Below, piece after piece: positions 5,079-63,969 of a stretch of 64,000 bases of DNA. The notes beneath the pieces are model-generated. The model saw nothing but the letters and a program-made list of their open reading frames with translations, had not been told where the DNA came from and did not search any database. The translations under genes were made by a program, and so were the position numbers. The number at the start of each line of letters is the position of its first letter. Position 1 is the stretch's first letter. The DNA comes from Alteraurantiacibacter buctensis (GTDB taxonomy: Bacteria; Pseudomonadota; Alphaproteobacteria; Sphingomonadales; Sphingomonadaceae), in the NCBI RefSeq assembly GCF_009827655.1, contig NZ_WTYV01000001.1, positions 248,001 through 312,000 of the forward strand. Reading direction: 5' to 3'.

Positions 5079-5089
5079 GGCGCGCGCTC

Positions 5090-6343: not shown

Positions 6344-6352
6344 GGTTCAGGC

Positions 6353-7273
6353 TCAGGCGTAGGGCGCTTGCCCGTCGCGCGGCGGGATAGCGCCGGGGCG
6401 CATCACGCACCAGCCGGCCAGGGCGTGCCCGCGCAGGGCCGCGTCATGCGGTGATGCCCCGGCAAGGCGCGCGGCGAGGTAACCCGCGTTGAAGGCATCC
6501 CCCGCCCCGCTGGTATCGACCGGTTGCAGCACCTGTGGCGGGGGGACCAAAGTGCCGTCGGGCAACAGGCAGCCTTTTGCGCCCAGCTTTACCACGGTTT
6601 CCGCGCAGCCCAGCCGCTGCCAGTGTGCGGCCACGGCCTGCGCGTCATCCGGCAGACCCAGCGCCACCTCGTCCTCCAGCGTGGGCAAGCCGATGCTGGC
6701 CACGGCAATGGCAATATCGCGCAGGTGCGCTGCCTCCGCCTGCGAATCCCACAGGCGCGGGCGGAAGTTGCCGTCGAACACCACCTGTCCCCCGGCCGCC
6801 CGCACCTTGCGCGCGGCATCCAGCAGCAGGTGGCGCCCCGCCATCGGCAGTATCGCCAGCGAGATCAGCGAAAAGGCCAGCACCTGTGCCTCACCAAGCG
6901 CCTCGGCCAGCCTGGCGCTGTCGGGCAGCGCGAACATCTGCCGCGCCGCGCTGTCGCTGCGCCAATAGGAGAAAGTCCGCTCCCCTGCAGCGTCCAGCGA
7001 GATGGAATAGAGCCCCGTGCTGCGCGCAGGGTCGGTCAACAGCAGCGAGCAGTCCAGCCCCTCGGCCTGCCATTGCTGGCGCAGATTGGCGCTGAAGGCA
7101 TCGCTGCCCAGCGCGCTGGCATAGGCCACGGTGCAGCCCAGCCGGGCGAGGTGGACCGCGGTGTTGAGCGTATCTCCGCCATAGCCAATCTGCCACAAGC
7201 CGCCTGCGCGGGCAGACAGCTCCAGCATCGCCTCGCCGGCGAGGATCACCCGGGGCGTGCTCACCAGTTCCAC
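6353..7273 (-). CDS. kdgK: 2-keto-3-deoxygluconate kinase (PfkB family)
   Basis: Phosphorylates KDG, the ManD product, to KDPG for cleavage in the Entner-Doudoroff route. About 306 aa. It shows the PfkB N-terminal GEAMLELSA, the [15 protein letters not shown] sugar-binding block and the C-terminal signature [14 protein letters not shown] with the catalytic Asp. The start is a GTG at 7273, overlapping the end of manD by 13 nt (another GTG lies at 7264), so it is translationally coupled to manD. Members of PfkB vary in sugar specificity. The name rests on gene order as well as sequence. Confidence 0.85.
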
Positions 7274-46109: not shown

Positions 46110-47414
46110 TTAGGCCGCATTCTTCCAGGAACTCGGCTCCGCCAGCAGCGCCGAGAGCGCCGAGACCACTTCTGCCTCGGTTTGCGTTACATCAAGGGTC
46201 GCGACACTCAGCCAATCCTTGGAGTTGTTGATGGAGAACGCGCGCGGGAAAGTCTGGCCCGCAAGTCCCGCGTGATATGGGTAGAGCAGAAGAAGATCGC
46301 GGCAGTCGTAGAGGCGGCCATAGGCCATCATCTGATAAACATCCGCCTGACTGATGCCCTGCTTTTCATCGTCGATCCGGCGGGCGCTCAGGCATTTCCA
46401 TTTGGTGTCGATCACCTTCAATGTCTCGCTCCCACGCTTGATGAGCAGATCGGGCCGCGTTTGAAAGCGTGGCCGGCCGCCATCTTCCTCGGTCAGGCAG
46501 AACAGCCTGCCACCTTGCGAATGGACCGAGAGCCCGGTGCCGCGAAGTACGCGTGCCGCGAGAGCTGCAACGTAGGCTTCGAATAGATCGTTCATTGGGA
46601 ATAGCAGCGTCAGGCCGTTTTCCAGGCGGGCGTCATGATGGGTCGCCTGCCATTCGCGTTTCAACAATAACCGAGCCAGTCGGTAGAGTGCTTCCCATCG
46701 CCGGTTGGTTCTGTCGATGTGGACTCGCTCCCACGGCAATCCGCTCGTCGCGACATCGGCAACGTCAGCCAGGACAAACCGCAATTCGTCGAGCCGGCGT
46801 TGCGTTTCGGTGCTTCTGGCGAGCTTTCTCAGCAGGACGACAGCGGCCTTCATGATCTGCATCAGCGCGATGTCTGACGACAGCACGTCATAGCGGCAGG
46901 CAAGCCGGTCCGGTCGGACGGCATGAGTGGTGAACTGGCGAACCACATCCAATCGTCCCCGAAGCGAGGGCAAGTCTTTCTCCCTCTGCCGATAGGCGCG
47001 CGGTAGGCCGCGACGGGTCTCTGTAAGCAATCGATCGGCGAAGTTACGGATCAGGATGTCAAGAAGGGTCTCGCTCTGTCGCGCCATGCTGGTTTCGGCA
47101 CCCACGCCGATTTTCAGGTCGAGCGCGATTTCGAGCATTCGCATGAGCCGATTTCTGACGGTAGGGGCCGACTCATCGGAAGCGAGAGGATCGACCTTAG
47201 GCAGGATTTCCAAGCTGCATCCCGCGGCGGCGATCACGCCAACAAACTGTTTAACGCGCAGGAAGCCGTAGTGGTCGGACAGGATGCCAGTTCCCTCCTC
47301 GCCGCCAAGCGGATGCGCGCGAGCCGCGGCAATCAGCGCATTGGCCTCGGTGCGCGAGAATCCACCGGGGCCAACTGCCACACGGCCCCATTCGCTCACC
47401 GAAAGATGCGTCAC
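46110..47414 (-). CDS. mcrC: McrC-like nuclease subunit of a McrBC system
   Basis: 434 aa. The McrC N-terminal region (GILSDHYGFLRVKQFVGVIAAAG, LEILPKVD) is followed by a helical domain and a C-terminal PD-(D/E)XK nuclease with RPDLLIKRG and LKVIDTKWK. In type IV McrBC it cleaves modified DNA when McrB translocates. ATGA overlap with mcrB upstream shows coupling. Confidence 0.9.
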   Translation of the reverse strand: MTHLSVSEWGRVAVGPGGFSRTEANALIAAARAHPLGGEEGTGILSDHYGFLRVKQFVGVIAAAGCSLEILPKVDPLASDESAPTVRNRLMRMLEIALDLKIGVGAETSMARQSETLLDILIRNFADRLLTETRRGLPRAYRQREKDLPSLRGRLDVVRQFTTHAVRPDRLACRYDVLSSDIALMQIMKAAVVLLRKLARSTETQRRLDELRFVLADVADVATSGLPWERVHIDRTNRRWEALYRLARLLLKREWQATHHDARLENGLTLLFPMNDLFEAYVAALAARVLRGTGLSVHSQGGRLFCLTEEDGGRPRFQTRPDLLIKRGSETLKVIDTKWKCLSARRIDDEKQGISQADVYQMMAYGRLYDCRDLLLLYPYHAGLAGQTFPRAFSINNSKDWLSVATLDVTQTEAEVVSALSALLAEPSSWKNAA

Positions 47415-49657
47415 GTCTCGTCACCTCCGGCGGCATCGCCGTACTCATCGTCGGGTGTGGGTATCGCCTCGGATCCGGCAATCAGCCTGTCATAGGCATC
47501 GGCGGCAAAACGCGGACGGATGAACCAACTCGGCCTCGAATCTGCCTCGATCCCCGGTGGTGGCGCGAGGTCTCGCCGTCCGATAAATCCGTCCCCTACA
47601 ACCGCATGAATGCGGCTCCAGTCCTCGAAGAAATACTCTTGAAGTAGCGGTATTACGTTGTCGCTCATCACCCGGTCGATTTCGTCCCGCGATCCGCAAG
47701 CCATAAAGAAGGCATGACCAATGCGATGATCGCGATCGATCAGATATTCGATCCGGTCATTGATCCTGTCCAGCAGGCGACGAAGGGGTACGCCATCAAC
47801 CTGTTCGGGCAGCAGTCGCGATTCAGGGGCTACTTCCCGAAAAGTGAATCGCCGCCGCAGCGCCGTGTCAAGGAGCGCGATTGAGCGATCGGCGGTGTTC
47901 ATCGTGCCAATTATGTGGAGATTGGCGGGGACGCCGAAGGTCTTCTTCGAATAGGGAAGTGTGAGGGTGAGCGAATTGGGCATGCCCAGCCGCTTGTCCG
48001 GTTCGATCAGGGTGATGAGTTCGCCAAACACCTTGGAGACATTGGCGCGGTTAATCTCGTCAATGATCAGGACATGAGGAAGGGGCGCCGTTGGAGTTAC
48101 ATCACCGCCCCCCTGACCGATCAGCGCCGAGATCGCGCCGAGGTCCACGTCATTTTTCCTCAGGGGGTAGATTGTTTTTCGGGCAAACTGGACTGGCGTG
48201 ATGTCGCTGGCCATGCGTCCGTCCGGGTCGCTCCAAAGCCAGCGGACCTTCCGGCGATGAGAATAACGGCCACTGGCGCGTGGAGCGTATTCGTACTCCC
48301 CTTCCACGAGCCCGATGGCGCGGAATCGGGATAGCCCTTTCGAAACAATGATCAGATCGCCGATGTCGAGGTCGTTGCGGAACACGTCCGTGGACTGGAT
48401 CGGCCCGGTTTGCAGGGTAAAGTTCTTTTCGGGATGCTTGGATAACGCTTCACGCAAGATCTGGCCCCGGTCCTCGAATCTCGGGTCGCTCCAATCAATG
48501 TCCGTGAATCCGAAGAGCGCGTAACCATTGACCAGGGATTCCTCGAAAACCCATGCCGAGTCGGGATCGCTCGCATCGCCCAAAGACATCTTAAAAATGC
48601 CGCGGTCGGATATAGCGAATGGCGCATCGCCAGAGGTGAGTGGCGCGAACCTCGCTCGGGACGCAATCTGTTGAAATATGCCAGGCTCGGGCCGAAGCTC
48701 AAATCCTGCCGCGTTACCCTCGTCGTTCTCGATAGGAACAGGGCGAAGCCCTTCCACGAAATCCTCGTAGCTGAAATTCTGGTGGAAGGTCACGAAAGCG
48801 ATCCGTCCCACCTCGACGAGCTCTGCGTAGCTTGCCATCAGTTCGGCGCGGCTTGCCCCTGCGGTCTCGCCGCATAGCCGCACGGCCTCCGCCGCCGACG
48901 CGTAAGTTTTGCCGGTGCCCGGCGGGCCATAGAGGATGAGGTTGGTTGGTTTGATCATGGCCGCCTCGGGTGCCTTTTCCTCGCTAGTTGACGGTTGAGC
49001 CGATCTGACGGCCAACAGCTCATTTGCTGAGCCCGTTCGGGGAATCCCCAATGCTGCGGCGATCTCGGCCGCGACCTCGTAAGAAGTCAATTTCTGCTTG
49101 CCGTACGCGAGATATGGACGCCGTCCATTGTTCGAGCGCAGAACGCGTACTGACTTTCCTTCAAGTATTAGCGCTCTTGCGACCTCGACAATGTCGGTCG
49201 TCTCCTCAGCATCTTCCGTCTTGTTGGAGGCACCGCGGATGCGGAATGCTTTGTTTCCGGTTTGCTGGTTGACCTGTCTTACCGGCCAGTGCGGCGTACC
49301 CGTATCGTCGAGCAATAATACGCGTTTGTCTGCGTCGTCGCTGTCAAACGTTGTGCCCGCTCTGTCGCTATCGGCACGAAAATTCGCGTAATAAGACAAA
49401 GTCGAGCGGTAATGAGACAGGTTAGCATACAGGTTTCCATTGATAGGAAACGGCGCAGGATTTGGTCGGTTGGCGCGCTCATCGGACTTTGAGTAGCTTA
49501 ACTCAGCTTTGATGGAGTCAAAGCCATCTGCGTCAAATGCTTCGTCGAGATCTCCAAAGTGAGTTTCAAGGCGCTTGGCATCGGTAACTTGGGTATTCTG
49601 GGTAGAGAGAGAATGCCCTTGCGCCTGCATCCACGCCCTGAAATCAGACTCTCTCAC
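47411..49657 (-). CDS. mcrB: McrB-like AAA+ GTPase with domain inserted in the motor
   Basis: 748 aa. An N-terminal target-recognition region (1-230), then AAA+: Walker A GPPGTGKT (244-251), Walker B VLIIDEINRANV (about 529-540), and the McrB-specific MNTADRS signature (586-592). Between Walker A and B lies an unusually long insert, about 349-500, with beta-rich sequence (GDLIIVSKGLSRFRAIGLVEGEYEY) resembling an EVE/PUA-like fold that could read modified bases. Overlaps mcrC by ATGA. Confidence 0.9.
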   Translation of the reverse strand: MRESDFRAWMQAQGHSLSTQNTQVTDAKRLETHFGDLDEAFDADGFDSIKAELSYSKSDERANRPNPAPFPINGNLYANLSHYRSTLSYYANFRADSDRAGTTFDSDDADKRVLLLDDTGTPHWPVRQVNQQTGNKAFRIRGASNKTEDAEETTDIVEVARALILEGKSVRVLRSNNGRRPYLAYGKQKLTSYEVAAEIAAALGIPRTGSANELLAVRSAQPSTSEEKAPEAAMIKPTNLILYGPPGTGKTYASAAEAVRLCGETAGASRAELMASYAELVEVGRIAFVTFHQNFSYEDFVEGLRPVPIENDEGNAAGFELRPEPGIFQQIASRARFAPLTSGDAPFAISDRGIFKMSLGDASDPDSAWVFEESLVNGYALFGFTDIDWSDPRFEDRGQILREALSKHPEKNFTLQTGPIQSTDVFRNDLDIGDLIIVSKGLSRFRAIGLVEGEYEYAPRASGRYSHRRKVRWLWSDPDGRMASDITPVQFARKTIYPLRKNDVDLGAISALIGQGGGDVTPTAPLPHVLIIDEINRANVSKVFGELITLIEPDKRLGMPNSLTLTLPYSKKTFGVPANLHIIGTMNTADRSIALLDTALRRRFTFREVAPESRLLPEQVDGVPLRRLLDRINDRIEYLIDRDHRIGHAFFMACGSRDEIDRVMSDNVIPLLQEYFFEDWSRIHAVVGDGFIGRRDLAPPPGIEADSRPSWFIRPRFAADAYDRLIAGSEAIPTPDDEYGDAAGGDET

Positions 49658-49760
49658 GTCACTCCCTCCTCGATCATCCAGGCAAGTGTATTGACCAATC
49701 TCAGCGTCCGCGGATGACCTGACCTATGCGCGGTGTAACTTAGAAAAGTAACGTGTTGGG

Positions 49761-50450
49761 CTATCGAACGATTGCTCGGCGATATCCCGCCGCTTGGGCG
49801 TCTGCCTCAGAGCAAAACATCTCTTCTGCCCTGGTTTGGTTGTAATAGGGCATGCCTGGCAAATGGTAGATCCACTCGCCTCGCCGGTTGCGGTTGCCCT
49901 TGATTACGCATCCGCCAGCAAATGCAGTCTCGGCGGGCCTCCTGGTCCTCGATGCAGTCGGTCGAGACGGGGGCGCCGGGGTCTCGTTGCCCGCCATCCG
50001 GTAGTTCTGCGGCAGATCGAACTCCGAGCGCCAGATGCCGTGGCGCTCGGCACGCGCCCGAGTTTCATCCGCCACATAGGCATTGCTGAAACTGCGATAG
50101 GCGGTCGCCCACCCTTCGCTCACCATTGTCCGGTTAAGGTCAAATTGGCCCACCCGGCAGGTCGCCAAAAGTCGGCCGTAGGTGTCGCGCTCTACTCCCA
50201 TGCAGGTCACCGGGCCCACTGCAAGCAGGGCTTCAAGTTGCGCTTTGGATTCCTGTCCGCAGGCCCAGGTTTCGCCATTCAAGCGACAAGGCTGATCGAG
50301 CTCCGGGGCATCTATGCCATGCAGCCTAACTTGGGCCCCATCGACCGCTAAACTGTCTCCGTCGACGGCTGAGCCGGTCCCAACGATCGTCTCCGCTGCG
50401 ACGCTGCTAGGGGCTGCAATCAGTGCCAGGGCAAGAAAGGCTATCCGCAT
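49761..50450 (-). CDS. Exported thermonuclease (SNase) family protein
   Basis: 229 aa from ATG 50450 ([20 protein letters not shown] gives a signal peptide). An upstream in-frame extension to 50498 lacks it. The SNase core has [23 protein letters not shown] and [16 protein letters not shown], then a Pro/Arg linker and a C-terminal conserved block [25 protein letters not shown] secreted or periplasmic nuclease, ordinary housekeeping scavenging or defence cannot be told apart here. Confidence 0.88.
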
Positions 50451-50582
50451 GATCAAAGTCTCGCGCAATTTCGTGAAGCGCTCGTTACCGCTTAGCAAGA
50501 TCGGCCCAGTATAAGCCAGGTCTTAACTCGCCAGTGGACTGCGGCCCCCTGCCGTTTCTGCGTTTCCCGAAAGCAATTGCGT

Positions 50583-51782
50583 ATGACCCTTGTCCTCGTT
50601 GACGACGAAACTGGCCCGACGGTTGTTCACCGCGTGCCGCAGGGCATTGCTGCCGCTGAGCACCCCCTGCGCGACATCGTGTTTGCCCATCCGCAGATCC
50701 TGCCCCTTCACGAACTCGAGCCTGAGATTGGGCGTATTATTCCTGTAGCGATCGAGGTGAACTTGCCCGGCGCAGGCTTTGTCGACGTTCTGCTGGTCAG
50801 CGAGTACGGACGACTGATCATCGTCGAATGCAAATTGTGGCGTAACCCACAGGCCCGGCGCGAAGTCGTCGGCCAAATCCTCGATTACGCCCGCGAGCTT
50901 GCTCGTTACGGTTACGAGGATCTGCAGCGGGTCATCTCTAGTCGCCTCGGTCGCCGCGGCAACGTGCTCTATGAATTGGCAGCAGCTGCGGGGAGTCCCC
51001 TGGCGGAAGCCGATTTCGTCGATCGAGTGTCCCGCGATCTCGAAGCCGGTCGGTTCCTACTGATCATCGCTGGCGACGGCATAACCGAGGGCACCCGCAG
51101 GATCGGTGAATATCTCGGCGCGCAAGCAGGTCTCGCCTTCGACCTCGGGCTGGTCGAAATCGTCGAGTACCGATTCGACGATCCGCTAACCGGAACCGCG
51201 CGGCGCATCCTTCAACCCCGGCTGCTGGCCCGCACCCAGACCATCGAGCGCTATGTCATCCGTAGCGAAGTCCCGGGAGTGATGGTCGATCCGGTGGTCG
51301 AGGAGCCAGATCCCATCACGCGCGCGCGGCCCGAGGTCGCCGCCAACCACGCCACCTGGCGCGCCTTTGTCACCCGTTTCGTTGACGACACAGCGTTTGA
51401 CGATCCGGCCCAGATGCCGGCGCGTCACGGGGGCTTGAACTGGATGCGACTACCCATGCCCGGCCCCGTCGGCTTGACCCTTTACCGTTCGGGCACGACC
51501 GGCAATGTTGGAGCGTTCCTGCGTTACCGCGATGGCGAGGGTCTCGCGCTCTATGAAGAATTGCTGGCGCAGCGTGAGGCCATTGACGCGGAGTTTGCGG
51601 CAGCCGGACTGCCGGCGCCCGAGTGGACCACATCCGGTGACGAGCGGCACATCTCGGTTCTCACCCCTTCACCCGCTCCTTGGGATGCGGCACGCGAGGA
51701 GGACCAGCGTCAGTGGTTGGCGCGGGCGGCCAACGCGTTCGTTAACATCGTCGCGCCGCGGATCACCCGCGCTCTCGGGTAA
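50583..51782 (+). CDS. PD-(D/E)XK nuclease-domain protein of unknown family
   Basis: 399 aa from ATG 50583 (a TTG lies 6 nt upstream). Restriction-like core: FVDVLLVSEYGRLIIVECK with Asp68, Glu82 and Lys84, followed by WRNPQARREVVGQILDYA, the helix seen in DUF4268/archaeal Holliday-type families. The C-terminal half (about 230-399) has no recognised domain. The convergent gene overlaps its last 20 nt. A defence-type nuclease is likely from the neighbourhood. Confidence 0.6.
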   Translation: MTLVLVDDETGPTVVHRVPQGIAAAEHPLRDIVFAHPQILPLHELEPEIGRIIPVAIEVNLPGAGFVDVLLVSEYGRLIIVECKLWRNPQARREVVGQILDYARELARYGYEDLQRVISSRLGRRGNVLYELAAAAGSPLAEADFVDRVSRDLEAGRFLLIIAGDGITEGTRRIGEYLGAQAGLAFDLGLVEIVEYRFDDPLTGTARRILQPRLLARTQTIERYVIRSEVPGVMVDPVVEEPDPITRARPEVAANHATWRAFVTRFVDDTAFDDPAQMPARHGGLNWMRLPMPGPVGLTLYRSGTTGNVGAFLRYRDGEGLALYEELLAQREAIDAEFAAAGLPAPEWTTSGDERHISVLTPSPAPWDAAREEDQRQWLARAANAFVNIVAPRITRALG

Positions 51783-53244
51783 GCGCGGTCAGCACCAAGA
51801 CCATCGCCTCAGTGTCGCGCCGGCAATAGTCGAGCAGCGCGTCGCGGATTGCCCCGCGGCGCTCGCGGCTCGTGGCAGGATCGGTCGCCTCGAGGTAGCC
51901 CGCCTGTGCATCGGTCCCAGACTTCACCTCGACCAGATCGGCATAGCCAATGTCGGCCAACGTCGGCAGCACCGCTTTGATCGACCAACTGCCGCGCATG
52001 TCGCGGTGGTAATAGTGTCGGCGCGCCAGCGGCAGCAGATCGACCAGCCGATCAGCGAGGCTCTCCAGCACTCGGGCAAGGTCTGGACAATGACGCGCCA
52101 GCCCGAGGATGCAGCTGCGCTCGAACGCCATGTTCCAGGCGATGACTGCGCCTTCCTGTGGGAGCCGCGCCAAGGCTTCGGCGCACGCACGGCGCGGATC
52201 GCCGCCGTCCAGCGAAAGAAACTCGCTGTGAGTCATGGTTCCGTCGGCGTTTTCGATATGCGCCGAGAACTGGAACGGCACTTGCTGGAACGGCCGCGTT
52301 CCCAGCCAGCGTGGTATGGAGGGGGCAATGGTCTCAAAGTCGAGATAGGTCCGAGGCCAGGCCCAGCCGGCCGTCGCCGCGCGGATGGCCTCCGCCTCGT
52401 GCCACACTTCGCCCGTTACCGTAGCATGATGGATCCGGCTAAGCTTGGGGCTCGGCATCTCGTCCGCCGGCACCTGAGTGAGGTCGGCGATACCGCCGGT
52501 CTTGAGTTTGGCGGCAACCTTCTTGCCGGCCGCGTCAGGCAAGATGTCGACCGGCCACTCGGGCGCCTCCGGTTCATTCCGACTGCACCAGCCGATGAAA
52601 GAACAGGTAAACGGACTAATGCAGTGATCGCCGCGCTCAATTGGCGGTTCGTCACTGGCCAGCACCGCGCGCGCCTCGGCGACCACTTCGGCCCGCGTTT
52701 CCATGATAGTCGCGACCCGTTCATCGACCCGAGTGTCGGTGAACAGGCCCGCATAGTCGCCCTCGCGCTCGAGTGTGAAGTCGCGATCGACGTGACGGAT
52801 CGCTGATGAGCGAACCTCGACGCCAGCATTGCGCATGACCCACAGCTGGGTGGCGAGATCACCGATGTGATAGTCCTTCACGCCGGTGGTATTCTTGACT
52901 TCGGCCATGTGCCAACCGCCCTCCACGGGCTCGAGGATGTCCACCCGCACCAGCACGCCATCGTGGGCAAAGGTCGCCTCGAAGATCGGTCGGTCGTGGC
53001 CTTGGGCTAGCAGCGAAGAGGTCTGCTCGACCGCCCGCCCCATCCCGCCTTCCGCGCTGACCATGACTCCTCCGGGGACCAAGCTGCAGGCTAACTCGCC
53101 CACCCTGTGCCCCTCGGCGAAGCCGCGCTGCATATCGGGCTGCTCGTCGGCGAGCTCGGGCCGGTGGACCGACAGCCACAGCCGCTTGGGGCACTGCTCG
53201 AACAGCGTGATGCGCGATTTGGAAAGACCAGCCTGGCGAGTCAT
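51763..53244 (-). CDS. DUF2779 nuclease-like protein
   Basis: 493 aa from ATG 53244 (MTRQAGLSKSRITLFEQCPKRLWL). The N-terminal half resembles Cas4/RecB nucleases with the fitting Cys pattern CPKRLWL and CISPFTCSFIGWC that could hold an Fe-S cluster, plus AEVKNTTGVKDYHIGDLATQ. The C-terminal half contains YLDFETIAPSIP, AWNMAFERSC and a late LLDYCRRDTEAM, as in DEDD exonucleases. The dual nuclease layout is the DUF2779 pattern. The start overlaps the small upstream gene (ATGA). Confidence 0.78.
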   Translation of the reverse strand: MTRQAGLSKSRITLFEQCPKRLWLSVHRPELADEQPDMQRGFAEGHRVGELACSLVPGGVMVSAEGGMGRAVEQTSSLLAQGHDRPIFEATFAHDGVLVRVDILEPVEGGWHMAEVKNTTGVKDYHIGDLATQLWVMRNAGVEVRSSAIRHVDRDFTLEREGDYAGLFTDTRVDERVATIMETRAEVVAEARAVLASDEPPIERGDHCISPFTCSFIGWCSRNEPEAPEWPVDILPDAAGKKVAAKLKTGGIADLTQVPADEMPSPKLSRIHHATVTGEVWHEAEAIRAATAGWAWPRTYLDFETIAPSIPRWLGTRPFQQVPFQFSAHIENADGTMTHSEFLSLDGGDPRRACAEALARLPQEGAVIAWNMAFERSCILGLARHCPDLARVLESLADRLVDLLPLARRHYYHRDMRGSWSIKAVLPTLADIGYADLVEVKSGTDAQAGYLEATDPATSRERRGAIRDALLDYCRRDTEAMVLVLTALTRERG

Positions 53245-53465
53245 TCTTGAGACCTTGCTTCGGCCAGAGTAGCAATCGCTATTGCGATCACCTTGAGGTC
53301 TTGTCCGACATCGTGGAGTTGGCCGCTCAGATCGGACATACGTTTCGCCGTGGCATCGGACGCTCCACCTTGGTCTGCACACAGGGTGCCGTGCTCGAGA
53401 CGCCGCGCTGCCATCGCGAAGAGCTCGCCCGGCAAACAGTCTCGTTCGTCATCGCTTACTAACAC
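53241..53465 (-). CDS. Small hypothetical protein coupled to DUF2779
   Basis: 74 aa from a GTG at 53465, mostly helical (LSGQLHDVGQDLKVIAIAIATLAEA). The stop overlaps the DUF2779 start codon by 4 nt (ATGA), which supports real translation and coupling. No family recognised. Confidence 0.5.
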   Translation of the reverse strand: MLVSDDERDCLPGELFAMAARRLEHGTLCADQGGASDATAKRMSDLSGQLHDVGQDLKVIAIAIATLAEARSQE

Positions 53466-53596
53466 GTCCCTATGAAGCGGCGATTTTTACGCCAAGTCCA
53501 GTAGCAGCTTCGTGCCTAAGAAGACGACGCGGCCCCTTGCCCGCAAATGTTGGCGCACGACTTGCGTCATTCGGCCAATACGGGCAGCCTCTATGT

Positions 53597-55531
53597 ATGG
53601 ACCGGGCCTATCTAGCCATCGCGGCAACCGAGGTTGCCGCATCGAGCGACAATGAACTTTACGGCCAGCTTGCCCGCAAACTTCCTTTCGAGGTCGAACC
53701 CACCCAGCGAGCCGCATGGGAATATCAAATCGAGCATTTGCGGGAGCTGGCCCAAGACCTCCCCGATGCCCATTTCTTCATCGAATTTCTGATCCCGCGC
53801 ATGGGACGCCGCGCCGACCTGATCATCGTCACGGGCGGCATCGTATTTGTGGTCGAGTATAAGATCGGCGCGAGGCGGCTTGATCGATCCAGTCTCGACC
53901 AGGTTTATGGCTATGGGCTCGACCTGAAGCACTTTCACGAAACCAGCCACCACCTTCCCATTGTCCCGATCCTCGTTGCTAGCGAAGTCGGCGAATGCCC
54001 AACGCCCGTGATTGACTGGGATGTGGACGGCCTCGCCCGCCCGGTTGGATTGGGCCCTAGTCAGCTTGCGAACTTCATCGCGCAGCTCGTCATTGCTGAA
54101 GATCGGCCCTCAATCGACGTCGCGCACTGGTTTGCTGGCCGCTATCGGCCAACACCGACGATCGTCGAGGCTGCGCAAGCGCTTTACGGTGGGCATGACG
54201 TCGAAGAGATATCGCGGTCGGAAGCCGGCGCCGAAAATCTCACTCGCACATCTGACTACGTTTCGCAGGTGATCGAAGGAGCAAAACAGGACCGCCGCAA
54301 GATCATCTGCTTCATTACCGGTGTACCCGGCTCAGGAAAGACCCTCGCTGGCCTCAACCTGGCAACTGCTCGCCAGCGCGCGCACAGCGAAGAGCACGCC
54401 GTCTTTTTATCGGGCAACGGGCCCCTGGTCGAAGTCTTGCGGGAGGCTCTTGCTCTCGATGCTGTGGCTCGCGCCAAAGACGCCGGGGAACGACCATCGA
54501 AGGTTCAAGAGCACCGGCGTGCATCGGCATTCATCCAGAACATCCATCACTTTCGTGACGAAGCATTGGCAAGCGACCAGCCGCCGGTCGAGAAGGTCGC
54601 TATCTTCGACGAAGCCCAGCGCGCTTGGGATGTCGAGCAGACCTCGAAGTTTATGCAGCAGAAGCGCGGGCAGCGCGGCTTTTCCATGTCTGAGCCGGAG
54701 TTCTTGCTCAGCGTGATGGATCGCCATCCTGACTGGTGTGCGATCATTTGCCTGGTTGGCGGAGGACAAGAGATCAACACCGGTGAGGCCGGGATCGACG
54801 AATGGCTGCGCGCCATCGAACGCAGCTTTCCACATTGGGATGTGCACGTCTCACCGACACTTCAGCATGGGAATGCGATTGCGAATATCACGCAGAGTGA
54901 GGGCCTTCATCTTTCCACCTCAATCCGGTCGTTCCGAGCTGAGAAGCTCTCCGACTTCGTAGGGCATGTGATCGCCGGAGATGTTGAAAAGGCGCGCCAG
55001 GTCCAAGCTGAATTGACCCATTTTCCGTTGCTGGTGACACGAGACTTGGCAGCCGCGCGCCAGTGGCTGCGTTCGATGCGGAGAGGCACAGAACGGGCCG
55101 GATTACTGGCCTCTTCCAACGCGGCTCGCCTCAAACCTCACGGGATCTTCGTGAAAGCCAAGATCGAGCCAGCGAAATGGTTCTTGGCCCCCCTCGACGA
55201 CGTACGCTCGTCCGATGCACTTGAAGATGCAGCAACTGAGTTTGACGTTCAGGGCCTCGAGCTCGACTGGGCATGCCTGTGTTGGGATGCCAATTTTCGT
55301 CGTGGTGCAGGCTGGGAAACGCATCAGTTCCGCGGTTCGCGATGGGAACAGATAAGTGACCCATCACGGCAAGCCTATTTAGCCAACTCCTACCGAGTGC
55401 TCATGACCAGGGCACGACAGGGTCTAATTGTCTATGTCCCCCGCGGCGATCATGAGGATAGAACGAGGCCAGGCAGTTTTTACGATCCGGTCTTCGAATA
55501 TCTCATGGCTGCGGGTCTCAGCGAGTTGTGA
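53597..55531 (+). CDS. DUF2075 (Schlafen group 3-like) nuclease-helicase
   Basis: 644 aa from ATG 53597. The N-terminus is a PD-(D/E)XK-like domain: RRADLIIV with Asp74, then VVEYK with Glu87 and Lys89. A SF1-type ATPase domain follows with Walker A GVPGSGKT (about 241-249), Walker B AIFDEAQRAWD, and a motif VI-like LANSYRVLMTRARQGLIVYVP near the end. This matches DUF2075 / Schlafen group 3 helicase proteins, often found in defence islands. Single gene on + strand between two minus-strand blocks. Confidence 0.85.
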   Translation: MDRAYLAIAATEVAASSDNELYGQLARKLPFEVEPTQRAAWEYQIEHLRELAQDLPDAHFFIEFLIPRMGRRADLIIVTGGIVFVVEYKIGARRLDRSSLDQVYGYGLDLKHFHETSHHLPIVPILVASEVGECPTPVIDWDVDGLARPVGLGPSQLANFIAQLVIAEDRPSIDVAHWFAGRYRPTPTIVEAAQALYGGHDVEEISRSEAGAENLTRTSDYVSQVIEGAKQDRRKIICFITGVPGSGKTLAGLNLATARQRAHSEEHAVFLSGNGPLVEVLREALALDAVARAKDAGERPSKVQEHRRASAFIQNIHHFRDEALASDQPPVEKVAIFDEAQRAWDVEQTSKFMQQKRGQRGFSMSEPEFLLSVMDRHPDWCAIICLVGGGQEINTGEAGIDEWLRAIERSFPHWDVHVSPTLQHGNAIANITQSEGLHLSTSIRSFRAEKLSDFVGHVIAGDVEKARQVQAELTHFPLLVTRDLAAARQWLRSMRRGTERAGLLASSNAARLKPHGIFVKAKIEPAKWFLAPLDDVRSSDALEDAATEFDVQGLELDWACLCWDANFRRGAGWETHQFRGSRWEQISDPSRQAYLANSYRVLMTRARQGLIVYVPRGDHEDRTRPGSFYDPVFEYLMAAGLSEL

Positions 55532-55790: not shown

Positions 55791-56657
55791 TTAATCCGGT
55801 GGGCGTCTGCGGATAGCATCGCGAACGACATTTCCCGGCGCGATTTGTCTAGCGATATCGATCCCGTCGCGAAACCCTGGGATTTCGGCAAGAGAACCCT
55901 TTGGTCGCTGGGCCCCGCGAACCGAATGGAAGGTGGCCTCCAGCTTGTACTTCGGCATTTTCCAATCGATGGGTTCGTCGGCATAGATCCAGTCCGGCTT
56001 GGCACCATCGAAGATCAGGTTGTCGATGTAGAAGGCTGGACCCTCAAGCCCGAATTTTCCACCGCTCTGCTCAGCGATATATGCCTTTGAGAAGGCGAAG
56101 TTGGCTTGAAGCTGGGGCAGGACATCGAAGTGTTTTTCGATCGCCGCCGCTTCGCGAACGGCCTGATCGGCTGAGATGGTGCCGTCTGCCATTCGCCGCA
56201 ATATCGAGTCGAGATGTCCTGATGTATAGTCAATCGCGCGGCGGCTACCCTTGGCCCTTAGGCCCGGCGCAACGACCATACGCGCGCCGGCAAATCCATT
56301 CCGGATTTCGGACGATTGCACAGCACTGTAGAGGTCCCAGGCCCGGCAAAAGAAATCGACGGTGCTCGCCGAGCCGCGCAGCGAAAGATCACGATAGGCG
56401 ACAGCGCCGTCATTGAGCACGAGCGTTCGAAAATTACGAGTGCTGTGCTCGGCAACGAGACGGTGGAAGGTGCGGAGCCGATTGATCGGCCTTATCGCTT
56501 GATCCGCGATTGGATTGTAATCGACGTCCGCAATCATATTGGCATAACCGAGCAGATCGATCCATCCAACGATCGCGACCTTAAAAGGGAGACTGCTCGA
56601 GCCGCCCTTGCGGATCGCCGGTGTGCGAGTGCGTCTTAAATTGCTCGCGACAGCCAT
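55791..56657 (-). CDS. Uncharacterised protein with possible nucleotide-cyclase-like fold
   Basis: 288 aa. Two spaced motifs resemble class III cyclase metal sites: VAIVGWIDLLGYANM (D-I/L-x-G-F/Y pattern) near residue 35 and LVLNDGAVAYRD near 80, followed by GARMVVAPGLRA, matching the usual order of D1, D2 and a later Gly/Arg-containing strand. I do not recognise a named family. It diverges from the giant STAND gene, 204 bases away. Enzymatic activity is not demonstrated by sequence. Confidence 0.5.
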   Translation of the reverse strand: MAVASNLRRTRTPAIRKGGSSSLPFKVAIVGWIDLLGYANMIADVDYNPIADQAIRPINRLRTFHRLVAEHSTRNFRTLVLNDGAVAYRDLSLRGSASTVDFFCRAWDLYSAVQSSEIRNGFAGARMVVAPGLRAKGSRRAIDYTSGHLDSILRRMADGTISADQAVREAAAIEKHFDVLPQLQANFAFSKAYIAEQSGGKFGLEGPAFYIDNLIFDGAKPDWIYADEPIDWKMPKYKLEATFHSVRGAQRPKGSLAEIPGFRDGIDIARQIAPGNVVRDAIRRRPPD

Positions 56658-56861
56658 CTGCTTCCTCTTGAATCATGGAATCCGCGTGCGCGTAGGCTTC
56701 GCAGCTTGCATTGAATGTCTTCGCGCGCGGCGCCTTAGTCAAACACACTCTTCAAAACATTTCGCTGAATGTTGGATGGACAATAAGCGGGTGACTTGCC
56801 GCCCGAATTAGCTGAAGCTAGTCGCTGTAACTTTGACATTGACGAAGGGCAGAACGGGGGC

Positions 56862-59800
56862 GTGTCGCGAACTGACTATAGTGGCAAGCGTGGTAGCAAC
56901 GCCGGTGACGATTATCACGAGCTCTGGGCCGCACGCCGCGCGCTCGAACTTATCGCACCAGGCAGCGATCTCGTTGAACTCACAGTCGAGGGCGTCACAG
57001 CCGACGATGCTGAAGGCATGGATGACGCCTTGTGGGATGGAGTAGATGCCGCTTTCTACTACGGTCAGGACGTCGACACGATCGAAGGCGTTGACCTCGT
57101 TCAGTTCAAATATTCCGGAAGCGATCCCGGTACACCGTGGACGGTAGCGCGGCTCGCTTATGCGAATAATAAGGCGAAGACCAACGCGCTGATCGCCCGC
57201 CTTGCCAGCGCCTGGAAGGGGATGCGCAAACAGCGGCCCGAGCTTGATGCTGCGGACAACATCGTTGTGAAGCTCGCCAGCAACCAGCCACTTGCGCAGG
57301 AAGTGCTCGATGCGCTGGCTGCAGCACCCGGCGACGCAATGCGAACCAAGCTGCAAAAGGCGAGTGGCCTGACACCTGCCGAATTTGCCGCTTTCGCTCC
57401 CGCCCTGGACTTTGGCGATTGCGGCGACCAGTCGCGGTTCGCGCATGAGGAGCGGGCAATTCAGACGCTCTCTAGCCTCACCGATGGCGATGTGCGGGCC
57501 GAGTTTGCCGTATTGCGCGAGTTTATCCGCAAGCGGATGCGACCCGAAGGCAGCCAGGAGACAATTACCGCGGAAAGCGTGTTCGGTATCTTCGGTCATG
57601 CCGACAAACGCGTCTTCTATCCCTGTCCGACCGAGATTGCCCGTGTGTCCGAGTTGGTGCCGCGTGCCGCCGCAGGAGCAATTGAAACGCTGTTCGCCCA
57701 AGGCACGCAAAAGGTCTGCCTTGCGGGTGCGGGCGGCGAAGGCAAGACGACGGTCCTACAAGATCTTGCTCAACGCTTGCCAACGGGCTCTGAACTGGTC
57801 GTCTATGATTGTTATGGCGGTGGCACGTATCTCAATTCCAATGGCTACCGGCATCGCGCCGAAGATGCATTTTTGCAGCTAGCTAATGACACTGCCGCAC
57901 GGCTGCTGTTGCCGCCACTATTCTTTGAAACGGGGGTCGATCATCCGCGCCGCTTTGCGCGGAAGCTGGAGGCGACGGCCGCCGCCTTGGCTTCGCGCCA
58001 TCCTGATGCATTGCTGGTCATTGCCGTCGATGCCGCGGACAACGCCGTTACAGCGGCATCGCACTGCGCCCCACCCGAGCGCGCTTTTGTACATGATCTC
58101 GCGCGGCTCGGCGGGATACCGGCAAATGTCCGGTTGATGTTCAGCGCGCGTACCGGTCGCCTCGCCGATCTCGACCTTCCAGATGATGTTGTTCCGGTCC
58201 CCTTGGGACCGTTCGAAATGGAAGAGTCCATCCGTTTTGCGGAAGCCAGGCTAGGGCCGCAGGACAAGGAATGGCACGAGGAGTTCCATTTCCATTCGGG
58301 CGGCAATCCGAGGGTGCAGCGTTACGCCATAGAATTTGCCGGTGAAGTAGCGGATGCCGCGCTCGACTATCTCAAGCCCAACGGCAAGAATCTCGAGCTG
58401 ATCTTCACAACACGCTTCGAGGAAGCGCGGACCAAGTCTGGCAGTACTGCCGAGCTGACCCGCTTCTGCGCGGCATTGATCGTGCTACCAAGGCCAGTGC
58501 CGATCGCCCAGCTTGCAGGCGTACTTGGCGCTGAACCAGCACATATCCGTGACCTTATCGCTGACCTTGCGCCGGGCCTGGTTCTCGAAGGCGAGCTGGT
58601 GAGCTTCGCCGACGAGGATTTCGAGCATTTCCTTCGTGAAGCCGGCGCGTCGGCGATGCCCGCCATTGAGGGGAGCGCCGCCGACCATTTGATGGCATGG
58701 CGCATGGCCGATCCCTATGCGGCGAGCCATGTCGCCAATCTGGCTTTGCTCGCCGGGCGGCGTGAAGACGTCATTTCTCTAGTTCGGGAGCCGGTAGCCG
58801 ACTACCCGATTGCCGATCCGGCCGAACGCGGAGAAGTCCATCGCCGAAGATTGCGGGCGGCAATGCATGTCTGCCGCGAAACCGGCAATGTCATCGATGC
58901 CGCCGCGCTGCTGCTCGAAGGTGCACAAGCGCTCAAGACCGACGATGCGGTGCAAGATATGTTGTTCAAGCACATCGAACTTGCCGCGAATTTCTCTCGA
59001 GACGCGATCTTCACGCTGTTGCTGCGAAACCGCGACAAGCGTCCAGGGCATGGCGCCTTGCTCCTCCAGCTTGCCGGGATTGATGGCGTTGCCGGCGATC
59101 GCATCGGTATGAAGTCCCATTTCCGAAGCTTTCTGGCCTGGCAGGACGGGCGCCAGGATGTCCGGAAAGCCTTTGAAGATGAGGATGACGCCGCTGCGGC
59201 GGACGAGGATGATCCTGATGCCGATACGCGGCGTCGCAAGCGCGATATCTCCAGAGAAGATTTCGAGCGAGACTGGAAACTCGAAGCGGACGACGTCGCC
59301 GCATTTCTGACAGGACGACTGCATGCTGACGGCGCGGGCGAAGTTCTGGCACTGATCCGGCGCCCGCGACCGGCCCGGTTCAGGCTGGAAGTACTACGTT
59401 GCCTGGTGATGCGCCTGGCACGTCGCGGCGATCTCGCTTTGCTGACGCGAATGCGTGATGCGTTACCGCGCCGGCATCCAGGCCGCCCGATGGTCGAGCT
59501 GGCCGTCGGTTTGTGCGGCGGAGATTTCGCGGCCGAGCCGATGTTGCGCCGGCTTGAGATCATGGCGGCCGGTGGCGGGTTTGGCGAACGCAATGTCGGC
59601 ACCGACCATATGCCGGACAATTCGACGAGCGAAGCACTGCGCTTTGGTCTCGACGCGTGCGATCTGGTCGCGTTGCAGGGTGGCGATCCCGCGCGCCTTG
59701 CAGTGACACTTGCACCCGCGATGGCCACAAGCGCTAGAACGCCCAGCGCGCTGGCGAGCTATGGCCCCAGGAGCAGCGATGTCGCGGCGCGGGTCTTTGC

Positions 59801-62800
59801 ATTGGCAAATGTGCTGAAGGGCGAGCCTGTCACGTTCGACAAATTTGTGGTCGAACCACCGCCGCCGCCGCCACCGCCCAAGAAGACTCGTGGTAAGAAA
59901 GCACCCCAGCAGCGGCCTTCGCGCGATCGCGAGTCGGATCTGCGTAAGGCGAAGGAACTCTACGAGCCGATCCTGCAGCTACACGCCACGCGCGCCATGG
60001 CGCTTGTCGGTACCATCACACCGGGTGATGCACTCCCAGCCTTGGTTGAGGCACTGAAGAAGCTAGGCTCCGCTCGTCGCTATTATGCGCGGGAGGATGA
60101 ATGGCGTACGCGCGATGATACCGCGATCCGTGCGTTGCTCCCAGTAGGTCTGATCGCCGACATCGACGCAGGCGCACTGTTCGCGGCGATCCGGGGCGCT
60201 TTGGGCGAAGTCGGCTCGCTGATGCGGTTCGGTACGCTCGACTTTCTCCAACATGCCTCGATCGTACCGGGCTTTCGGCCTGGGATCATCGAACTGGCGG
60301 TCGAGACCTGCGATCATGTACGCGGCATCAAAATCTCTGCCGACGAGAAAATCGACTATCTCGTCGAGCTAGCCAAGTTGGTGCTTCCGCTTGATGCGTC
60401 AGCTGCCCGCTATTGTTTCGACGCTGCGATGAGCGTGGCCGGCGATGTCGACTATGACACGTTGCACGCCCTGTCTGTGACTGCGGCGCTGGCAAAGCGC
60501 GCACGACCGGCGATGCTCGATGCCGACGCCGAGCGTCTGGCGCTACACCTCGCCGCCGTCCATCAGGACGCTGCGATCCGTCTCGGTAACGCTGACCAAT
60601 TCCCCTGGAACGACGTGGCGGTTTCGCTGGCCGCACTTGCACCGAATATTGCGCTTGCGGCGGTAGCACGCTTTGCCGAACTCGATCTGACAAGCGGGTC
60701 GGCGATGCTCGATAGGACGCTCATGCAATTCGCGGCCGACAGGACGCTCGACGATAGAAGTCTGGCGGCCTTTCTACCGATCCTCGGCGAGGATGGCGGG
60801 CGCCTTGCGACGCTGCTGCTCGAGCATGCCGGAACAGCCAATGACCACCTGCTTGCCGAGGTCGTCGCGGGCCATCTGTTGCGCGAACCTTGTGGCGACC
60901 GTGGGAAACAGCTCGCTGCGGCCGTGCTGCTGGCCGAGCCTGGTTCGGCCGTGCGCGATCTTATCGCCGCTGCGAATTTCGAGGCGACACTTCCGCAGCA
61001 TCGGCCGGACTATTCACGCTACGATTCGCCAGCCAGCCCAGCGGCTGCACCGAAGCCGATCGATCCGGCACTTCTGTCGATTGCCGGTATCGATGGCATC
61101 GCGTCGTTTAGGGCACGGATCGACGCCATTATCGCCGCTGAAGACAGCCCATATGCATCGCGTAGCACGGTCGCGAACCGGTTACTGGCCAATGTCCCCT
61201 CACACCGTATCGGCGAGTTCCTCGACTTGCTGATGTCGGTGCCGGAAGAGGACGACGCCGTCTACGACATTGCTAATTTCCTGCGGGAGCAGCTTGACCG
61301 CTGGCACGACAAACCCGCTGCAAAGCAATGGGCAAGAGATCGGTTGCTATCGGTGATCGAAGCGCGATTGCCCGAATTCCTATGGTATATCGGCTATCGT
61401 GCGCCTGACCTTGCGGCGTTGCTCAAGCGGACCGAAGCGGACTCGTCCGTGATCGTCAGCCGGCTGCTCTCGGCAATCGAGCAGCATATCACATCGCTGA
61501 ATTCCCTGGGCATCTTTCGATTGATCAGCTTGCTGAGCGGTTATCTCACCCATGAGCAGGCCCAAGGAATTGTAGATCGGCATACGAGCGCGCTGCATCT
61601 GCGGCTCGACGTCGCGGACCGTAGTTTGCCGGGCTTCGATAGCATTGGCGATACCGCGTCATCGGTCGCACGCTATCTCTATGCCGAACTCGGTCATATT
61701 GCGCAGGCACCGCGGTGGCGGGCCGGCTATGGCCTGCGCATTCTCGCGCGCCTCGGGAACGGCGATATGCTCGAGCAGGTGCGTCAACGGTATGACCATC
61801 GAGCAGAACCTGCCTTTAGCCACCCCGAAGCGCCGTTCTACGTCTGGGCGGCAAAGCTCTGGTTCATGATGGCGCTCGCGCGTATCGCTTGGGAGACCCC
61901 CAACCGCATTCAAGGGTGTCGGGACTGGTTATTCGAACAGGCTGAAAGCGCCGCATTTCCGCATTTGTTGGTGCGCGCGTCGGCAAAACAGGCCCTGCAG
62001 GGGCTGGCCCATGCCAATCCGAACAGCTTCAGCAAAGCCGATTGCGCGCGCATCGCGGCGATCAACAGTAGCAAGCTTGTCACCCAACAATCGACAAAGC
62101 AAAGCTGGCACAAGGGGTTCGACAGCCATCGTCCGCTTGGCGAGGAAGGACGCAGATTTCGGTTCGACAGCCTGGATTCGTTACCGTACTGGTATTCACC
62201 GCTTATGCGATGTTTTGCCGAGCCCGATCCCGGTGCCTTTTTGGAATGGGCCGAACTCTGGATCGTAGATAACCTCGGCATTACCGGCGACATCTGGAGC
62301 TATGATAAGCTGCGCGGCAATCACCGTTTCAATCGGCGGGGTCGGGATAGTTCGAACAGCCACGGTTCCCTTCCTGCAATCGAGCGCTATCGTACGCATC
62401 TGGAATGGCACGCGCTCTATCTCGCAGGGGGCGAAGCCTTGGCGACGTGGCCGCTGACGGCCGATGCCGAAGAGGACGCGTGGGACAATTTTGACCATTG
62501 GCTTTCACGTCAGGGGCCAACGCTAGCGCCCGCCTGGCTCGGCGATCTCCGCGGACCAAAGCCGCTCGAAGCCATTGCCTGGCAGGCACCGCCGCTGGAC
62601 GGTTGGCTGAACACGCCAGACGCCGACGCGTTTCGCGGTTCGCTCGGGCTGGATCGCCCGGACTGGTTGGTCGTCAGTGGGCATCGTTGGCTGCACTACG
62701 GCGAAGCCTCGGGATCGACCCGTGTCGAAAGCGCATTAGTGTCGCGCGTAATGGCGACTTCGCTGCGGCTGGCTCTTGAGGCCAGCGATAGTAGTCACGA

Positions 62801-63320
62801 CTATCGACTAGCGGTAAATGACGATGACAGTCTTGAGATCGCGTCGGGACACTTTGTATTGAAGTCGCTCCTCGCCGACCACCACGGTGATACCGAACTC
62901 GATATCCATGACCCCTTGCGCGGCGAGGTGTCCGCCTCGGGGCAATTGCCCCATCCACGGATCATCGCCTTGCTTGGGTTAGTGCGCGATCCATCCGGGC
63001 TGCCGGTCTGGTGCGATTCGAACGGTGTTGTCACTGTTCAACGAGTTGCCTGGAGCGACCCGAAACAGCCCGATGAGCGCGCTTCCCGGCATTTTGCCCA
63101 GGGTGAAGAGCTGTTGTTTCGTCGGTCGGCGATTGCGCAAATTCTCGAGACGTACGGACTCGATCTCATCACCAAAATTAATTTCAACCGACGGATTGGC
63201 GAAGCGAGCTATGCCCTCAAAAAAGACAAAAAGCGCGAGCGCGAATATGACCGGATCATCCTCTACCGGCACGATGGCAAAATCGAAGCGAGCACGCGCG
63301 GTCTCGGCCGTTGGGCGTGA
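56862..63320 (+). CDS. Giant nuclease-STAND NTPase, Avs/AVAST-like
   Basis: About 2152 aa from GTG 56862 (MSRTDYSGKRGSNAGDDYHELW). A TTG at 56796 would add 22 residues. The N-terminal domain (about 5-110) fits a Cap4/DUF4297-like PD-(D/E)XK nuclease: VELTVEGV, GVDAAFYYG and DLVQFKYS. Next is a STAND/NACHT-type P-loop, AGAGGEGKTT (about 288-297), Walker B ALLVIAVDAADN (about 383-394) and NVRLMFSARTG. Past about 500 the protein is long alpha-helical repeat sequence, with an acidic patch and a proline run followed by KKTRGKK near 1020. Nuclease-STAND-repeat order is that of Avs proteins, which sense phage proteins. The last 47 nt overlap the next gene. Confidence 0.72.
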   Translation: MSRTDYSGKRGSNAGDDYHELWAARRALELIAPGSDLVELTVEGVTADDAEGMDDALWDGVDAAFYYGQDVDTIEGVDLVQFKYSGSDPGTPWTVARLAYANNKAKTNALIARLASAWKGMRKQRPELDAADNIVVKLASNQPLAQEVLDALAAAPGDAMRTKLQKASGLTPAEFAAFAPALDFGDCGDQSRFAHEERAIQTLSSLTDGDVRAEFAVLREFIRKRMRPEGSQETITAESVFGIFGHADKRVFYPCPTEIARVSELVPRAAAGAIETLFAQGTQKVCLAGAGGEGKTTVLQDLAQRLPTGSELVVYDCYGGGTYLNSNGYRHRAEDAFLQLANDTAARLLLPPLFFETGVDHPRRFARKLEATAAALASRHPDALLVIAVDAADNAVTAASHCAPPERAFVHDLARLGGIPANVRLMFSARTGRLADLDLPDDVVPVPLGPFEMEESIRFAEARLGPQDKEWHEEFHFHSGGNPRVQRYAIEFAGEVADAALDYLKPNGKNLELIFTTRFEEARTKSGSTAELTRFCAALIVLPRPVPIAQLAGVLGAEPAHIRDLIADLAPGLVLEGELVSFADEDFEHFLREAGASAMPAIEGSAADHLMAWRMADPYAASHVANLALLAGRREDVISLVREPVADYPIADPAERGEVHRRRLRAAMHVCRETGNVIDAAALLLEGAQALKTDDAVQDMLFKHIELAANFSRDAIFTLLLRNRDKRPGHGALLLQLAGIDGVAGDRIGMKSHFRSFLAWQDGRQDVRKAFEDEDDAAAADEDDPDADTRRRKRDISREDFERDWKLEADDVAAFLTGRLHADGAGEVLALIRRPRPARFRLEVLRCLVMRLARRGDLALLTRMRDALPRRHPGRPMVELAVGLCGGDFAAEPMLRRLEIMAAGGGFGERNVGTDHMPDNSTSEALRFGLDACDLVALQGGDPARLAVTLAPAMATSARTPSALASYGPRSSDVAARVFALANVLKGEPVTFDKFVVEPPPPPPPPKKTRGKKAPQQRPSRDRESDLRKAKELYEPILQLHATRAMALVGTITPGDALPALVEALKKLGSARRYYAREDEWRTRDDTAIRALLPVGLIADIDAGALFAAIRGALGEVGSLMRFGTLDFLQHASIVPGFRPGIIELAVETCDHVRGIKISADEKIDYLVELAKLVLPLDASAARYCFDAAMSVAGDVDYDTLHALSVTAALAKRARPAMLDADAERLALHLAAVHQDAAIRLGNADQFPWNDVAVSLAALAPNIALAAVARFAELDLTSGSAMLDRTLMQFAADRTLDDRSLAAFLPILGEDGGRLATLLLEHAGTANDHLLAEVVAGHLLREPCGDRGKQLAAAVLLAEPGSAVRDLIAAANFEATLPQHRPDYSRYDSPASPAAAPKPIDPALLSIAGIDGIASFRARIDAIIAAEDSPYASRSTVANRLLANVPSHRIGEFLDLLMSVPEEDDAVYDIANFLREQLDRWHDKPAAKQWARDRLLSVIEARLPEFLWYIGYRAPDLAALLKRTEADSSVIVSRLLSAIEQHITSLNSLGIFRLISLLSGYLTHEQAQGIVDRHTSALHLRLDVADRSLPGFDSIGDTASSVARYLYAELGHIAQAPRWRAGYGLRILARLGNGDMLEQVRQRYDHRAEPAFSHPEAPFYVWAAKLWFMMALARIAWETPNRIQGCRDWLFEQAESAAFPHLLVRASAKQALQGLAHANPNSFSKADCARIAAINSSKLVTQQSTKQSWHKGFDSHRPLGEEGRRFRFDSLDSLPYWYSPLMRCFAEPDPGAFLEWAELWIVDNLGITGDIWSYDKLRGNHRFNRRGRDSSNSHGSLPAIERYRTHLEWHALYLAGGEALATWPLTADAEEDAWDNFDHWLSRQGPTLAPAWLGDLRGPKPLEAIAWQAPPLDGWLNTPDADAFRGSLGLDRPDWLVVSGHRWLHYGEASGSTRVESALVSRVMATSLRLALEASDSSHDYRLAVNDDDSLEIASGHFVLKSLLADHHGDTELDIHDPLRGEVSASGQLPHPRIIALLGLVRDPSGLPVWCDSNGVVTVQRVAWSDPKQPDERASRHFAQGEELLFRRSAIAQILETYGLDLITKINFNRRIGEASYALKKDKKREREYDRIILYRHDGKIEASTRGLGRWA

Positions 63321-63969
63321 GATCGAAGCGGCGCTCGGATTGGGGCATGGCGCCGATGTGCTGACACGCTGGATGGCCTTCCGCCTCGCTGAGGTGCGCG
63401 CTACCGTCGACGAAGCGGCGACGGCCGAAGCGCGCAAGAGTGCCCTGGCCGAACATGATTCGCTGATTATGGCCTTGTGGAATCAGCGGAGTTCGCTCCC
63501 CGAGCCGCTCGGCGTCGATCGCCGCACCGGGCTCGCCACACGCATCATCCAGCAGCTTGTCGACGATCCGAGCGTGTGGAACCGGCCGGACACACCCCGA
63601 AACGCCGTTGAAGTGCTCGGTAGCCTCCGCGATCATTGGGCCTATCTTCTCTCAGTGGCGGCCGTGCTGATGTACAAGCGTGAAGCGATTGAGCTCGGCC
63701 CTGAAGATCCTGACTTGCCGCTGACCGACGAAGAACGTGAAAACCGCAGACAATGGGCGGAGCTATCCCAAAGGGTCCTACGCGACATTCGTATGCGGGA
63801 AGGATCCCTGTACCGCGAGACCGAGCCATCCGACGCGGAAGCGGTCATAAAGCTTGAACAGGATGTCGGCAAGACCATCGCCAAATTGCGTGCCCATCTC
63901 GATATGCTCGAGCCGATGCTACTTCCAGACGTCCAGAAGGATTCTCCGAAAAACCACATGGCCAAATGA
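63274..63969 (+). CDS. Hypothetical partner of the STAND protein
   Basis: 231 aa from ATG 63274, beginning MAKSKRARAVSAVGREIEAALGL. The frame extends further upstream but only inside the STAND gene. Mostly helical: DVLTRWMAFRLAEVRATVDEA, RQWAELSQRVLRDIR and a final coiled coil ending LDMLEPMLLPDVQ. No enzyme motif seen. Overlap of 47 nt with the giant gene implies coupled expression, and hence a shared function, perhaps as an accessory or regulator subunit. Confidence 0.7.
   Translation: MAKSKRARAVSAVGREIEAALGLGHGADVLTRWMAFRLAEVRATVDEAATAEARKSALAEHDSLIMALWNQRSSLPEPLGVDRRTGLATRIIQQLVDDPSVWNRPDTPRNAVEVLGSLRDHWAYLLSVAAVLMYKREAIELGPEDPDLPLTDEERENRRQWAELSQRVLRDIRMREGSLYRETEPSDAEAVIKLEQDVGKTIAKLRAHLDMLEPMLLPDVQKDSPKNHMAK

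Follow-up and report, generated by a model that had tools for sequence, protein, structure and literature searches.

The avs3a–avs3b locus

We analyzed a 64,000-nucleotide stretch of the Alteraurantiacibacter buctensis genome (hereafter the window; part of contig C10 in an assembly of 3.77 Mb and 22 contigs), which contains two overlapping genes, avs3a and avs3b, that very probably constitute a divergent anti-phage system of AVAST type III (Avs3). Their features are as follows, with residues numbered within the encoded protein.

56862..63320, + strand: avs3a, Cap4-type nuclease, STAND ATPase and predicted C-terminal sensor; 2152 aa from GTG 56862; PADLOC Avs3a, E = 1.4e-168
56862..57599, + strand: PD-(D/E)XK (Cap4-type) nuclease domain, residues 1–246; no variation at E43, D62 and Q81-x-K83 among 16 diverse relatives
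57630..58541, + strand: STAND (NACHT-type) ATPase, about residues 257–560; P-loop GAGGEGKT 289–296, Walker B DAAD 390–393
58542..63317, + strand: long C-terminal part (residues 561–2152), which is expected to sense a phage protein; sequence homology to the SeAvs3 C-terminal half
59175..59228, + strand: acidic linker, residues 772–789; varies among relatives
59856..59879, + strand: polyproline linker, residues 999–1006; close relatives only
63274..63969, + strand: avs3b, all-helical partner, 231 aa from an ATG; PADLOC Avs3b, E = 1.2e-11
63274..63320, + strand: overlap of the avs3a end and the avs3b start in two reading frames, 47 nt

An earlier sequence-only reading had given the large protein 2150 residues, and we counted 2152; the 231-aa partner and the 47 nt common to both genes were as it had described. 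The avs3a frame stays open upstream to a TTG at 56796, and the alignments of relatives begin at the GTG. The avs3b start is uncertain because in-frame ATGs also occur at 63247 and 63211.

Assignment to Avs3

Both genes matched the Avs3a and Avs3b models of PADLOC and NCBIfam, with the PADLOC Avs3b match covering residues 4–77 of the partner, and Avs3a matched SeAvs3 (PDB 8dgc). The Cap4/DUF4297-like nuclease and the NACHT-type STAND ATPase proposed earlier were borne out by sequence and by predicted fold, including a structural match to a nuclease in the first 120 residues. When 16 diverse members were aligned, among them the SeAvs3-like protein of Klebsiella, the nuclease residues E43, D62, Q81 and K83 were invariant, as were G292, G294 and K295 of the P-loop and D390 and D393 of Walker B (catalytic roles were assigned by motif); the C-terminal half likewise retains family-invariant residues. 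Pfam NACHT was found in 39 of 43 scanned members but not in the window protein, whose own matches to Pfam ATPase families all fell under the Pfam cut-offs. Residues 804–2142 aligned to positions 769–2081 of the NCBIfam Avs3a model, and residues 1160–2142 matched the SeAvs3 C-terminal half in a sequence search. The long C-terminal part, also recognized in the earlier reading, is present at residues 561–2152 and, judged by this homology, is expected to be the phage-protein sensor.

The window pair therefore has the features of Avs3, namely the domain order with Walker A and B motifs and catalytic residues, two halves that are each homologous to their SeAvs3 counterparts, and an adjacent, conserved and overlapping avs3b. 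We consider it highly probable that the pair is a divergent Avs3 system working as SeAvs3 does. The suggested kinship with AVAST type III is thereby confirmed, and the pair is neither uncharacterized nor of a new kind, as both genes match the Avs3a and Avs3b models; these models and the 8dgc match led us to reject a new system.

However, several observations weigh against this assignment. The equivalog cut-offs of NCBIfam were missed for both Avs3a (NF041816, 673.8 versus 2800 bits) and Avs3b (NF041817, 41.4 versus 200 bits), so that the pair falls outside the equivalogs as NCBI narrowly defines them. Identity to the SeAvs3-like Klebsiella Avs3a is just 23% (469 of 2008 positions). In addition, the three other genomes of the class set with clear Avs3a-like proteins (G329, G470 and G554) were found without Avs3b, and the covariation of Avs3b with Avs3a described below could stem from gene adjacency and shared descent. 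The system is intact and ordinary in kind, a distant relative of known Avs3. Decay of the locus into a non-functional copy is highly improbable, since both frames are intact with catalytic residues retained and avs3a relatives at 78–96% identity occur in other sources, even though some relatives show obvious breaks (L056, L058, L060 and L064).

The acidic and polyproline segments, regarded earlier as unusual features, are indeed present, as variable linkers. Both stretches vary in length and composition among 29 aligned proteins; relatives carry diverse linkers in the region of residues 772–789, and the eight-proline run is confined to the window protein and three relatives at 79–89% identity. 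Accordingly, these stretches were ruled out as functional hallmarks.

Conservation of the partner and of the overlap

A protein search with avs3a gave 722 matches at E ≤ 1e-10 among the best 7987 candidates, which were scored. We further scanned genome contigs using 29 aligned Avs3a proteins as the query; this gave 99 loci, and we retained 80 of them (L014–L093). Eight of these could not be evaluated because the DNA ended within avs3a or <300 nt past its frame (L017, L024, L029, L034, L042, L048, L061 and L078). An Avs3b match followed avs3a in 67 of the 72 evaluable loci, although this sample may favor Avs3b-bearing loci because the query alignment was drawn from near relatives. A first search gave the match in 63 loci, and six-frame open reading frames (ORFs) gave it in four more (L030, L036, L060 and L076); damaged, truncated or displaced Avs3b-bearing loci include these four together with L056, L058, L059 and L068. 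When partners were aligned, 67 of 70, the window's included, matched the PADLOC Avs3b model. The partner is thus conserved beside homologues of avs3a.

Avs3b was absent from the remaining five loci (L055, L064, L085, L091 and L092). Judging from translations, a transposase-like ORF lies immediately behind avs3a in L055, and insertion-sequence-like ORFs follow a broken avs3a in L064. In L085, the Avs3b model gave a weak 16.6-bit match within the avs3a frame itself, which was left out of the count. In L091 and L092, an avs3a-like gene is followed, in the place of Avs3b, by an ORF of 362–415 aa with no Pfam match.

We then compared the overlap across 66 partners, including the window copy and two plasmid loci, using the site aligned with Met1 of the window Avs3b or, where the partner begins later, its first start codon. 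This position lay inside avs3a in 64 of 66 partners; in the other two (L056 and L058), the avs3a frames are broken. In 8 of 12 Bacteroidota loci, it was 44–50 nt before the avs3a stop, near the 47 nt of the window, and many other relatives have an in-frame ATG about 107–131 nt ahead of that stop. The overlap, previously singled out as unusual, is a family trait.

Lineages without Avs3b

The term 'obligate', which had been applied to the overlapping partner, is too strong because Avs3a-like lineages and genomes without Avs3b exist. We built a tree (FastTree) of Avs3a residues 1–720 with 85 rows and some long branches, from the count of which 13 rows with unknown or disturbed partners were excluded beforehand and in which damaged partners were scored as present. 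Seven of the 72 counted rows lacked Avs3b, requiring three changes: these rows are a four-member clade with full support (L085, L096, L103 and L125), the pair L105 and L124, and L091. The clade of four is Avs3a-like, and its named members are alphaproteobacterial.

Avs3a matches were found in 6 of 298 genomes of the same family and in 5 of 385 genomes across the class; each count includes the own genome. Within the family, G194, G277 and the own genome have Avs3b together with Avs3a, whereas it was not found with the Avs3a of G076 or G294. In the sixth, G244, a 597-aa frame beside a fragmentary Avs3a (L106, reverse strand, 5009–6799) starts with a short Avs3b-like piece and continues otherwise, and is perhaps a deletion fusion. 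Among the class genomes, only the own one carries Avs3b; G554 is apparently the same as the Tistrella record of L096, and one further Avs3a match, in G443, is weak. At sites away from Avs3a, the only traces of Avs3b were a match of 22 bits within a 978-aa frame (G022) and a decayed copy in G126 (L123:8544-9465). Directly in front of the latter lies a short Avs3a-like remnant (17 bits).

Proposed mechanism and the role of Avs3b

SeAvs3 tetramerizes when its sensor binds a viral protein, and this pairs the nuclease domains, as described in PMC11291478; the title of PDB 8dgc gives Avs3 with the terminase of phage PhiV-1. By homology, the window Avs3a would be inactive at rest, and its C-terminal part would bind a packaging protein of the phage, with the large terminase subunit as the likeliest candidate. 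The bound protein would tetramerize through its STAND ATPase and pair its N-terminal Cap4-type nuclease domains, which would then degrade DNA and abort the infection. Such a trigger, tetramer and DNA degradation are the most likely course for the window protein. Avs3b is probably made by translation coupled via the overlap. Its target is probably Avs3a, with the sensor half a likelier site than the nuclease, although its action is a guess.

The N-terminal part of Avs3b is conserved and the remainder changes fast (mean distance 0.64 versus 0.83), and its distances follow the C-terminal segments of Avs3a slightly more than the nuclease or ATPase. These patterns would suit a co-sensor or adaptor through which the phage protein is recognized more broadly or more precisely. 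However, the distances correlate weakly, and both adjacency and descent confound the result; the helical fold had no convincing solved match, and no structural match hinted at a binding function. We regard a co-sensor as a possible but doubtful role. Alternatively, Avs3b might be a restraint that keeps Avs3a inactive until infection, as MalY does with the STAND protein MalT. The overlap would hold both products in step, and inhibitors of a STAND protein have precedent (PMC10427625), whereas some Avs3a-like clades live without Avs3b and the 8dgc title lists only Avs3 and the phage terminase; a restraint seems rather unlikely.

A different trigger, in which an Avs3-type machine with a diverged C-terminus recognizes a portal or an unrelated phage protein instead of the large terminase, is in our view unlikely. 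In its favor, identity to the SeAvs3-like Klebsiella protein falls from 29.5% (residues 1–220) and 28.4% (221–560) to just 17.5% (561–1160) and 23.5% (1161–2152), and, within what PMC12931631 states of Avs1–4 triggers, Avs types other than Avs3 sense portal or other phage proteins. Nevertheless, the window protein and SeAvs3 are homologous in their C-terminal halves, and family-invariant residues are kept there.

No paper on Avs3b turned up in the library that was searched. We tentatively propose, with considerable doubt, that most Avs3 immune receptors across bacterial phyla have Avs3b as a second subunit, coupled to Avs3a in translation and cooperating with its sensor half through the helical fold. 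If so, current single-protein models of Avs3 omit a component, and the Avs3b-free lineages would have replaced Avs3b or absorbed its task. Avs3b is the point worth following, as its retention makes the partner's function directly testable and naturally Avs3b-free clades are available for comparison.

Genomic neighborhood

The following genes lie upstream of avs3a.

46110-49657, − strand: McrBC
49761-50498, − strand: nuclease-like (SNase-like) gene
51763-53382, − strand: DUF2779/Cas4-like gene
53537-55531, + strand: PDC-S41 with Schlafen-type helicase

Between the last of these and avs3a is a 288-aa ORF (55791-56657, − strand) with no convincing Pfam, PADLOC or NCBIfam match. Downstream of the pair (in L100:8191-18152) are a ResIII helicase, a Tle1-like gene, an N6-methyltransferase and a HATPase. 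We read these surroundings (window 46110-55531 and L100:8191-18152) as a defense island.

The genome also carries a large-terminase gene (phrog_5909, E = 1.9e-91; L102:1010-2005) at the end of contig C20 and the start of C21, which is cut at the contig ends and adjoins an ORF that we read as portal-like. We interpret this region as a resident prophage-like element with the class of protein that activates SeAvs3. A much weaker large-terminase match occurs elsewhere on C10.

Comparison with known systems

The Cap4 protein of CBASS (7yib) has a SAVED domain, in place of which the window protein has the STAND ATPase, at residues 257–522 in this comparison, and the long C-terminal array. No SAVED family appeared among its Pfam matches at E ≤ 1, and PADLOC SAVED3 reached only 13.3 bits, at residues 13–187, that is, the nuclease part. 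Avs4 (8dgf) is also an Avs STAND protein, but its Foldseek match (E = 6.5e-7) was far weaker than that of SeAvs3, and no Avs4 model was among the PADLOC matches at E ≤ 1.

An overlapping avs3a–avs3b pair in the same order as in the window is found on the Klebsiella variicola plasmid pKPN692_2 (L094), whose Avs3a matches 8dgc over its full length (4396 bits) and clears the NCBIfam cut-off (3075.9 bits). Unlike the window pair, its annotated overlap is 107 nt, and its Avs3b is 257 aa and remote in sequence (14%). Also among the closest known systems is SeAvs3, AVAST type III, bound in 8dgc to the PhiV-1 terminase. The window Avs3a is about 60 residues longer, in part through linkers, has about 23% identity to the Klebsiella near-copy of SeAvs3, lies far off on the tree and would presumably share the trigger. 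The window protein and three other members of its branch, scored against the NCBIfam cut-off, all fell below it; a well-characterized bacterial NLR-like receptor is hereby extended to a large environmental branch under NCBI's curated cut-off.
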